The notes beneath the pieces are model-generated. The model was not told where the DNA came from, did not search any database, and saw only the letters and a program-made list of their open reading frames with translations. Shown here one piece after another: positions 10,201 to 16,822 of a stretch of DNA of 64,000 nt. The translations under genes and the position numbers were made by a program. Source of the stretch: Gordius sp. MW1 (Eukaryota > Nematomorpha > Gordioida > Gordea > Gordiidae); the NCBI GenBank assembly GCA_964036665.1, contig OZ038529.1:21896060-21960059 (forward strand). The letters are read 5' to 3'. Each line of letters starts with the position of its first letter. Position 1 is the first letter of the stretch.

Positions 10201-13200
10201 ACACATCACTTGTCCCACGTCTACTCCAGCCGCAGCAACACCACTTAACATGCCCACCAGTGCGGAACAAGAGGACCTTAGTCGGTAAAATAGTTTTAAG
10301 TGCTCTTTTAATAAGGATTTTCATCGACCTATTCTTAACGTGCGAACTAGTGTTTGTAAAAACGGCAGGGTTTTGTTTGGTCAACATTTGGTTTTACTAA
10401 GATTAACGGTTGCTTCTGGTCTCTTTTTTAAAATTTCGACTAAGCCTAGGGGTCGACTAAGAAAAACGGACCAAAAAAATTTGGTCTGTTTATGTTTAGT
10501 CGACCAGAACTAAAGGTCGACCAAACAAAACCCAGCCGTTTTTACAACACTTATGCGAACTATGTATGGCTAATGAATGAACTGTGTTCTTTAGGAAATC
10601 AGCTTTAATTAAATAAATTTTCTAGGACGTTTAATATTTTCGTATAAATAAAAAGCGTACTTGCCTATAGTGCCTCGCTAAAGATTTTGAGCCCTAATAT
10701 TTGTGATGTAATGCGGAATAGCTCTAAAAATAGTAAAAAATTTCTATACAATTTAAAAACTCTTATCATTAGTTAAGATGAATCAAATATATAATTACAA
10801 AATTAATTTCGGCCTCACTCTTATGTATATTAGGGGCTTTAGAAAATGCAATACCAATACAATCTTTTTGGGTTAACTTTAAAAAGCCATTAGACTGTAT
10901 AAAAACACTTACATTTTTAAATTTATTGCAATTGCACGATGCCTTTCAGCTATCTCCGGAACCGGGGTGGACGCAAACGGCATACCCTTCCCGCCTCGTC
11001 CGCTTTTACAACTACCACCATACCCGAAGACATCGAAGTTTCGTATTTCGGGGCCCAAGACCAGAGCCCATCCCAAACATCCAGCAACTGTGAAAATGGT
11101 TGTATGCCGGATGGAATTAATAACACTCCGTCAGCTACTGCTCTTAGGTTTTAAGCCTAGCCTAATGCCTAAAAACCTAATTTTGGTCTTAGTTTTGCTT
11201 TTTTAACGTAGCCCTATTTAATTTTTTTTTACAAAAGATGGTTTAATCATATATATCTGCTTACAATACAGCAAGTTTGAAATCTTGAACCCATAAACGG
11301 GGTCTGATTAAAGATTATGCTCGTTTTGTTCTGTTAAACTTGCAAGTTTAAAAGGCTTAAATAACATTAAGGTGGATTCAACCATTTAAAGCTGAGGGCT
11401 TGTCTTAATATCGGTTCAGATTCAAATCGCGCGAATTCATCTTTGTCTAAATATCCGATTCAATTTCACGGGTCAAACATGGTTGTAATTGTTATTTTGT
11501 TTTTTGATAGTTAAAATCGTTAATATGTTTATTTCAGCTCTTGAGATTAAATCTAAACTTTGCTGATACCTAAAAATCAACGTTTAAGCTTAGGAAAAAT
11601 TTTGCATCTTACTTAATCGCTGTTATGTTATGCGTCTGAAATGTAAATCTGCTGTGTGCGAATTCGAAGTTAAGACACGGGGCTGTGTTATAACCCGTAC
11701 GACGATTCTTGCTGCGTAGCGAAATCCGATATTAAGACAAGCCCTAACCGTTAACTAACGACCATAAGCTCTAGTTAGACCTCCTTAAGAACATGCAATT
11801 AACGCGGGCAGCTAGTTTTTATTTTATGTCGTTGAGGTCGCCATGATCGTTTATCAATCCAACAGGTATCAAAACAGGCACCATTCAATCAAGGCGTCTC
11901 GCTGCTACCCCAACAACAACGATAATTCAGTCGCCAAATGCCCCAAAACAACGCCACGACACAACTCCGTCATGCCTCGTCTCGGTATTTACAGTCAATT
12001 TTAGAATGATTTTTAACATCGCCCAAAAGGACGCACTTAAATAGTGTTTTTTGTGATGGTATAACGTCCTAAAACTAACAACTTTATCGCTTATATTTTC
12101 CACTTTTTAGGGGGATTTAACATTCCTTAATTCAAGGATTTGTTTATATAAACACTACGTTGTCTTAAATCTAAATTTTAGTAGCCTTAAATTTACATAG
12201 AATAATCACATGATACGCAGATGGTTACGCCTTGGAGGATTTGCTGCGATTCCAAGCCCTACACGGCTGCACTAGTAATCAAGTTCCAGAAACCACGACG
12301 CCCAATTCTAGTGACACAAGCCTGCACGGCGATGCGAGCGACAAAGGCCACGATATTTCGCATCAAAGCGCTTTTAACCCGGTTTCAGTTTCTTCCCCTC
12401 TTAATCAGAACACCTTACCCACCGCCTTCGATCAACCTTACTATCCCTACCATAATTTCGCTAGAGGTAATAGGTTTGGTGGCAAACAACAGTATTGCCT
12501 TCACATAGCTATAGGTTTTAGAGAATACCACCTGACTAAAGATATTGAATTTTGCTTTTTAATTTGACCCATTGGATAGTAGATGAGCCAACCTTTGGGG
12601 CAAACTTTTAAATTCAAACCACCATTTTTAGTCAGACTCCCGACGATAAACTTAATATCGAAATTTTGGGGGACTATGGCTTTATATAGTAGTGTCGTAA
12701 AAACGGCTTGGTTTTGTTGGTCGACCTTTGGCTTTAGTCGACTAAACATAAATAGGTCAAAGATTTTTTCGTTAATATTTCTTAGTCCCATCACTAGGCT
12801 TAGTCTTAATTTGTAGACCAAGGTCGGCCTTTAGTTTAAGTTAAACCTAATACTAGTGTTGTTAAAATGCCAAAATGCTACTACCATAACCTATGGTAGT
12901 AGCATACATCTCGCCCATTACCATCATCATAACCAGCATCATGCTGCTTAATAACCCGGTTGCTATCACTGGCAACCATGGTTGCTTGGTTGTAAGAGAT
13001 GTAAGTAACCGGGCATTTGGCAGATAGGATTGATATAACCGTGGTATTGAGCAGGCTCGTTTTAAACTAAACATTGTTTTTAGCAAATTCAATTTTAGCT
13101 TACTATTAGAGTTGGTAGCTGCCATATAATGCTAATCAATATTTTTCAATCATTTATTAATACAAAAATGGTGATTAAAAAATTTAAATATATTATAAAT

Positions 13201-16822: not shown

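Follow-up and report, generated by a model that had tools for sequence, protein, structure and literature searches.

The window analysed here, a 64,000-nucleotide stretch of contig OZ038529.1 of the nematomorph Gordius sp. MW1, contains at positions 12854-16564 a foldback element that lies within a probable intron and is flanked by an exact 8-bp target site duplication (TSD). Its left outer side is termed A and its right outer side B. This element is in all likelihood a recently inserted, non-autonomous member of a family of DNA transposons that belongs to the hAT superfamily and shows a foldback architecture. The TSD, the matching ends, the two opposed arrays (15 and 30 units) and the 0.4-kb loop described in a first-pass annotation of the window are all present in the sequence (Table 1). 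The inverted outer arms reported there hold from position 12940 inward, but not for the outermost ~86 bp, where A and B have in common the 12-bp terminus and scattered stretches and are not inverted copies of each other. Moreover, the label giant was an overstatement, since copies of the family span 0.6-7.2 kb, some of them lengthened by nested insertions.

Each unit of the left array is composed of a C run, an AT-rich core, a G run and the motif TGTTTTG. Tandem Repeats Finder assigned 15.2 copies with a period of 60 to the left array and 29.9 copies with a period of 56 to the right one. The strong inverted repeat begins inside the outer ends, with the two arms, and an inverted match of 297 nt (12940-13236 against 16172-16468) is 98% complementary.

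Table 1. Features of the foldback element and of its insertion site (positions in the window).
Feature	Position	Strand	Remarks
Probable host intron	12467..16661	+	4195 bp (476 bp without the element and one TSD); GT/AG, in-phase exons by reading
Older short element around the insertion, left part	12690..12853	+	right part at 16573-16598
TSD, left copy CCTAATAC	12846..12853	.	exact 8-mer
Left terminal inverted repeat TAGTGTTGTTAA	12854..12865	+	12 bp
Outer end A (left)	12854..12939	+	mostly unlike outer end B
Left inverted arm	12940..13215	+	A-type
Left array	13219..14100	+	15 units of ~60 bp; mosaic, switch from A-side to B-side types at ~13610
Loop	14101..14487	+	387 bases (0.39 kb); inverted relative to end A
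Right array	14488..16196	-	30 units; A-side types despite its position at the B end
Right inverted arm	16193..16468	-	98.9% identical to the left arm
Outer end B (right)	16479..16564	-
Right terminal inverted repeat TTAACAACACTA	16553..16564	-	12 bp
TSD, right copy CCTAATAC	16565..16572	.	exact 8-mer

The genome searched comprises 212 Mb in 12 contigs (named C1 etc.). With the left arm as query, 40 of 424 first-look candidates were scored, which gave at least 40 long matches at 96-100% identity and one 31-base piece. Twenty relatives were read as 10-kb loci, and in 18 of them a second end is present and the same 8-mer flanks the element left and right, together with the same ends and opposed arrays as in the window element; of the two misses, the coordinates chosen for L021 spanned two different copies, and L025 has suffered damage at its right terminus. 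Two 8-mers would match by chance with a probability of ~3e-5 per element. L014 and L015 represent one insertion site within a segmental duplication and, thus, 17 independent insertions are counted in addition to that in the window. The first-pass annotation had called for a search for further copies with 8-bp TSDs and arrays of different length, and had made its reading depend on the existence of a second copy; both are amply provided by these loci. The window copy and the 18 loci are 2178-5282 bp long, nested insertions making up part of some; their A-side arrays number 11-18 units and their B-side arrays 9-39, although these counts are fuzzy. Two shorter relatives were also found, namely L042 (597 bp, without array, perfect TSD CGTGCACG) and L043 (1009 bp, TSD CTTTCAAC). 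In the whole genome, the 12-base end has 532 exact matches against 60 for a control pattern, while the first 32 bases of the A ends occur at 93 places and the first 31 bases of the B ends at 41 places with up to three mismatches, and exact array cores at 2200, the control giving 0 in all three cases. Base preference in the TSDs is weak (20 sites). Related empty sites are available for L020 in L016 (96.7% over 307 columns) and L026 (96.4% over 306), inside a tandem repeat, and for L017 in L009 (89% over 176). The family is real, young and multi-copy, and the window copy is a recent insertion.

Several of these loci contain further mobile sequences. L022 harbours at 2144-5219 (element coordinates, as for the next two) a nested, unrelated hAT-like element with the TSD ATGTGCCT; L014 carries at ~1070-3090 a nested 2-kb retroelement piece, which by eye resembles reverse transcriptase/RNase H; and L020 contains at ~1900-3950 a nested element with 523-bp direct terminal repeats that are 99.4% identical. 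The duplication that holds L014 and L015 appears to be a large segmental duplication in inverted order (C4, ~184-318 kb and 1.54-1.68 Mb), with the same foldback insertion in both halves and equal-scoring hAT matches at mirrored places.

The assignment to the hAT superfamily is well supported, and comes mainly from two coding relatives. L041, 7.2 kb in length, combines both ends, the arms, the arrays and the loop with transposase pieces past the loop, and L048 shows the A end only, with an arm, an array, the loop and transposase pieces past it; the arms of both stand at 86-87% identity. Positions 3494-3913 of L048 match Dimer_Tnp_hAT (PF05699; E 1.4e-19, 70.1 bits, cut-off 21.4), and this piece also matches the Hermes transposase (E 2.4e-12), so that the C-terminal dimerisation region of hAT enzymes is found in the same locus as the A end, arm, array and loop of the family. 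Moreover, TSDs of 8 bp, as expected for hAT elements, occur in 18 of the 20 fetched loci and in the window, L042 and L043, and the short terminal inverted repeat (TIR) TAGTGTTGTTAA at both ends begins with TAGTG, in agreement with the consensus YAGNG of hAT ends. Long inverted arms with direct tandem repeats and little or no middle, characteristic of foldback elements, are likewise present. The foldback family of hAT kind proposed in the first-pass annotation is thereby borne out, hAT pieces being carried by coding relatives that share its ends, arms and arrays. Because these relatives share ends, arms, arrays and loop with the window element, the latter is best read as a non-autonomous hAT foldback that already had its arms and arrays when the transposase gene was lost. 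Its cut-and-paste movement would depend on a hAT transposase provided in trans, the sites of action being the 12-bp ends together with the outer ends A and B.

Some observations weigh against this reading. The pieces STDMWTG, THDNGAN and SERVFS, candidates for parts of the DDE catalytic triad, lie in separate frames of a decayed copy, and only SERVFS matched Hermes. Both L041 and L048 are decayed: by reading, L041 shows no duplication that matches at its two ends, and the right half of L048 is missing. Two protein searches for coding copies, in which 150 of 262 and 150 of 1389 candidates were scored, gave no intact coding copy among the scored candidates, and hence no source for the transposase behind the movement of the young copies. 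Among the candidates scored, a mutual match of at least 83% was obtained for L041 and L048 only, and the long transposase matches that follow stand at 65-67% identity. The 124-aa core piece of L041 matched no Pfam family. The P superfamily, too, finds no support here: P-type transposases such as that of Galileo have a THAP domain at their start, the C-terminal piece of L048 is hAT, and no P-type family was found in the ten pieces scanned (seven and three), the N-terminal pieces not being scanned for THAP.

The first 12 loci with PF05699 (L029-L040) were considered as a possible autonomous partner, which they probably are not, as none has the ends of the element at fewer than two mismatches; seven of the 12 match them at exactly two mismatches, which is taken as chance or as the mark of other families. 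The genome is very rich in hAT sequences, with 3413 first-look Dimer_Tnp_hAT candidates, 150 of which were scored. Further hAT transposase pieces (50-70%) lie beside L048, at C1:18518688-18519994 on the minus strand, the best one reaching 70% over 43 residues.

The interior of the copies varies. The loop of the window element matches L041 (82% over 249 bases) and L048 (81% over 243), where the matching sequence sits between the A-side array and the transposase pieces; it is, therefore, the leftover 5' non-coding region of a coding progenitor. L023, L027 and L028 retain another internal leftover of ~470 bases, including three copies of a ~109-bp repeat, which matches L041 beyond the transposase region (~90% over 146). 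L011, L018, L019 and L020 have no loop, and L010, L014, L017, L022, L024 and L026 are joined within the arrays. Since the internal leftovers differ, derivatives with arrays must have been made by several internal deletions, all of them younger than the arrays. The window element would owe its origin to one such deletion, which removed the transposase gene from its interior, among several different ones in the family.

The unequal arrays of the window element recur elsewhere. L012, at another site, also has 15 and 30 units; its left unit string is that of the window copy, its right array agrees in 29 of 30 labels, and over 3673 aligned columns the two copies show 5 substitutions and 47 homopolymer-length differences. 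L009 (16 and 29 units) lacks one right unit of the window copy, L016 (16 and 39) has a nine-unit block duplicated in the right array, and L013, with 16 left units, lacks in its right array both the unit missing from L009 and a five-unit block. Differences in array length consist of whole units or blocks of units (1, 5 and 9 seen), and tandem arrays would change in this way by slippage or unequal exchange. Between L014 and L015, 4965 columns contain 4 substitutions, besides 43 homopolymer-length differences and a single difference of 3 bases; their unit counts are equal after the duplication, 14 and 25 in both. Homopolymer-length differences amount to 43-58 per pair, in the comparisons of the window with its subfamily and of L014 with L015, and, as they come from assembled sequence, may be sequencing noise. 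As the sister insertion L012 shares it, the 15/30 asymmetry was inherited from the source copy, a conclusion that is well supported.

Three other accounts of the element have to be set against these data. The first-pass annotation took the unequal arrays as growth on each side after insertion at the window site, and differences in unit number between insertions do exist; nevertheless, L012 has the same 15 and 30 units elsewhere in the genome, only 5 substitutions away, and L014 and L015 have kept equal counts since their duplication, so this part of the annotation had to be abandoned and post-insertion growth is highly improbable, even though single-unit changes in place are possible at the window insertion. 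An affiliation with the described foldback families rather than with hAT, i.e., with FB/Tetris (Mutator kind) or Galileo (P superfamily), would account for the same architecture of long inverted arms and internal tandem repeats with variable copy number. FB elements are of Mutator-like element (MULE) type. Galileo has long repetitive TIRs and the TSD of Tetris is 8-10 bp long, so that TSD length alone does not separate these families from hAT. However, a coding relative has the hAT dimerisation domain, all 18 fetched loci with both ends readable have TSDs of 8 bp, and the TAGTG ends fit the hAT consensus, which leaves this affiliation extremely improbable. Lastly, the inverted half might have been produced by mis-assembly. 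Homopolymer-rich inverted arrays are hard to sequence, and the analysis rests on assembled sequence. Yet the two arms of the window element differ at fixed places, its outer ends A and B differ from each other, and the 18 dispersed copies are organised alike with differing array lengths and flanks; because 18 of 20 relatives share ends, opposed arrays and a perfect 8-bp TSD, an assembly artefact is very unlikely.

Beyond internal deletion and array change, the non-autonomous hAT foldback of the window bears probable traces of exchange between its two halves. Loop orientation was read from 39 of 54 loop-match rows; 14 of the 15 omitted are second pieces of included places, and the remaining one is a separate 71-base match at C7:12336631. 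Ten of the 39 places have no A end (up to three mismatches) within 9 kb and, thus, are not orientable. The loop runs opposite to that of the window in 18 of the 29 oriented places, including both coding copies, and as in the window in 11, of which eight form the window subfamily (99-100%) and three are older copies (79-80%). One of these three, L050, was read, and its orientation agrees, its B end being missing; the other two, whose A ends lie at C2:26496504 and C8:487659, rest on coordinates. Array units were typed against ten reference copies by leave-one-out, skipping units without label, and 20 of 20 reference arrays were placed on the correct side, though some reference copies are close relatives and these are not 20 independent trials. 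In the window element, left units 1-7 score +15.3 (A), left units 8-15 -18.0 (B) and the right array +55.5 (A). L012, L009, L013 and L016 show the same pattern as the window, and L018-L020 have A-type arrays on both sides.

The arms tell a similar story. The right arms of the window copy, L009, L012, L013, L016, L018 and L019 are 98.6-99.3% identical to the left arm of the window, and that of L020, split by an insertion, 97-99%, while the right arms of the other 11 of the 19 complete copies are of a diverged B type (88-92%). A marker stretch in the arm is derived on the A side of all 19 complete copies, whereas on the B side the derived state is found in the eight copies just named, the other 11 being ancestral. 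L041 and L042 have the ancestral state on both sides and L048 has it on its A side, and in L043 the stretch is derived on A and ancestral on B; one match to the ancestral motif in L050, located elsewhere in the arm, was disregarded. The A-type arm was, therefore, probably copied onto the B side. Taken together, loop orientation, arm sequence and unit types indicate that the interior probably changed its orientation and that the left arm was copied over the right one. Long inverted arms and arrays would recombine with each other, and in the window subfamily this would have flipped the interior, replaced the right arm and array by the A type and left the left array as a mosaic from A to B. The simplest path would begin with a flip of the interior by way of the arms and end with an unequal exchange in which the partner was a copy of the original orientation.

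The array units are not confined to this family. L049, on C1, has different arms, ends TATAGTTGTTAAATTGC and TAGAGTTGTTAAATTGC, a length of 1096 bp and the duplication GGCACAGG, and bears the same units; judged by its ends and duplication it appears hAT-like, and no transposase was seen in it. Array clusters were surveyed among the first 100 of the 2200 core matches, all within the first 9.8 Mb of C1, with 22 listed ends up to 9.85 Mb, and 17 of the 23 clusters have no exact TAGTGTTGTTAA within 5 kb; apart from L049, the one of them that was read, these may be decayed copies or further families. A sister transposase family, L045-L047 (65-67% identity), possesses long inverted arms (302-750 against 2967-3363, 78%, with a 201-nt part at 99%), and neither the ends of the window element nor array cores occur in the stretch examined. 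The long arms may thus be older than the arrays in this group. L045-L047 were discarded as an autonomous partner owing to this lack of ends and cores, and the core piece of L045 matched no solved structure.

Arrays of this kind give the element many C and G runs. The element has 81 runs of at least 7 and the remaining 60.3 kb of the window only 27, and G-quadruplex (G4) motifs on the two strands, 7 and 9 against 9 and 4, are enriched as well. One 120-base stretch is predicted to fold into short C/G hairpins at -31.4 kcal/mol; against dinucleotide shuffles this fold has a z of -1.76, with 10 of 200 shuffles folding at least as well. Hairpin stability as a special feature is, therefore, not borne out, the fold being only modestly better than shuffled sequence. 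That the structure would be hard to replicate is a conjecture of the first-pass annotation.

How the flipped subfamily was made, and why arrays are kept, admit more than one answer. Inverted joining of two copies or halves, for example by template switching during excision-gap repair or by end-joining, would explain the mosaic left array and the A-type arm and outer array on both sides, which a single reciprocal inversion does not give, as well as the A type on both sides of L018-L020. On the other hand, the outer ends A and B are intact and in place, the switch points are located where arms or arrays are homologous, and the orientation shared with three older copies suggests a recurrent homologous process. 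Joining is, therefore, a serious candidate, though the less probable one beside recombination between arms and arrays. As to the arrays themselves, retention as binding or synapsis sites of the transposase, by analogy with what has been proposed for Galileo, would fit their presence in coding relatives and in two hAT-like families with unrelated arms (L049 being the second), and secondary binding sites are reported to lie in the tandem repeats of Galileo (PMC3688188). However, the arrays are dispensable for movement, given the perfect duplication of the array-free L042, and the long-armed sister family L045-L047 has no array cores in the stretch examined; such a binding role is, thus, rather doubtful. 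An even less likely possibility is that the G/C hairpin array constitutes a mobile recombination module, acquired by at least two hAT-like families and kept for arm-to-arm exchange, which flips the interior and copies arms. If this were true, exchange through the module would keep regenerating symmetric, deletion-derived copies.

At the insertion site, by reading, the presumed intron has its donor GT at 12467 and its acceptor AG at 16660-16661, the preceding exon ends in phase 1 at 12466 and the last exon continues in frame to a stop at 16822. The location in an intron of a coding gene, as annotated at first, is thus probable by reading, and a name for the gene is only tentative: the match to SIK3 is weak (E 5.6e-5, 32 residues) and concerns one frame that lies upstream on this strand, Pfam gave nothing for three frames of the presumed gene, and the host may be a SIK-like kinase gene with the element in its last intron. 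Within the intron, the foldback lies in an older short element whose ends, TAGTGTCGTAAAAACGGCT and, inverted, TAGTGTTGTAAAAACGGCT, resemble by reading those of the foldback and around which no duplication was recognised by reading. Uninterrupted copies of this older element are found in the window at 10538-10348 and 6926-7103 and in L019 and L020 (69-73% over 174-193 columns).

Elsewhere in the window, positions 28726-29061 (minus strand) hold a hAT remnant (Dimer_Tnp_hAT, E 5e-17) near a tandem repeat of TCCGATCCGA at 28504-28626. A 293-bp tandem repeat at 31674-32374 is part of a dispersed repeat that also surrounds L020, L027 and other fetched loci. Dispersed repeats of ~130 bp, 79-86% identical to the flank of L026 and with short C runs, occur at 4419-4547, 30544-30673, 34534-34656 and 36822-36951, and further ones of the same set at 38989-39118, 47378-47501 and 55016-55139. 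A gene for a La-type RNA-binding protein occupies 60441-61280, perhaps to 62084 (La domain, E 1e-21; RRM in the first frame, E 3.5e-5). The segment 23002-24356 (minus strand) looks by eye like a reverse transcriptase of the long interspersed nuclear element (LINE) type, and its part 23002-23541 has no Pfam match.

Among known systems, the studies on Galileo in D. willistoni (PMC4168063) and D. mojavensis (PMC3573991) describe repeat numbers that differ between arms and copies, together with deletion derivatives, recruited internal sequence and chimeric copies explained by exchange. The family described here resembles this account in its long inverted arms with tandem repeats, arm-to-arm differences in copy number, deletion derivatives and chimeras. 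In contrast, Galileo as portrayed there uses a P-type transposase and has few repeats of ~140-210 bp, whereas the present family has a hAT transposase in its relatives, TSDs of 8 bp and arrays of 9-39 units of ~57 bp with C/G runs, whose units also occur in a second family with other arms. Tetris, as described in PMC4079207, is built from a flanking domain, tandem repeats of 220 bp, and inner and middle domains; it has no coding capacity, and its superfamily was suggested from a TSD length of 8-10 bp and from earlier foldback work; a sea urchin foldback is cited there as well. The multi-part arms with tandem repeats are a likeness to Tetris/FB, and the 8-bp TSD of the window element is compatible with Tetris without being decisive; nonetheless, the superfamily of Tetris is indirect in that text, while that of the window family is given directly by a coding relative with a hAT domain, not a MULE one. 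With Hermes/Ac and with Ds and miniature inverted-repeat transposable elements (MITEs), the family has in common the 8-bp TSD, the short TAGTG TIR, the dimerisation domain in a relative and internal-deletion derivatives. Typical hATs have short TIRs and no long inverted arms or tandem arrays, unlike the window family. The TU foldbacks of sea urchins have inverted arms, an outer tandem-repeat domain and 8-bp TSDs, and would thus be alike in general build. In the literature searched, with most subscription journals outside its coverage, no title or opening of an abstract points to a hAT foldback with tandem arrays in the arms; hAT with minisatellites gave no paper, and among 15 of 760 titles for foldbacks with G-quadruplexes none was related.

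As an architecture, the foldback is known from Galileo (P) and FB/Tetris (Mutator). Its occurrence in a hAT family that has coding relatives and numerous young copies indicates that this architecture arises repeatedly across transposase superfamilies. The family constitutes a natural record, unit by unit, of inverted arrays that duplicate, delete, convert and flip. Moreover, this record can be compared with the supposed role of such repeats in transposase binding and with the instability of genomes at hairpins of G/C runs.

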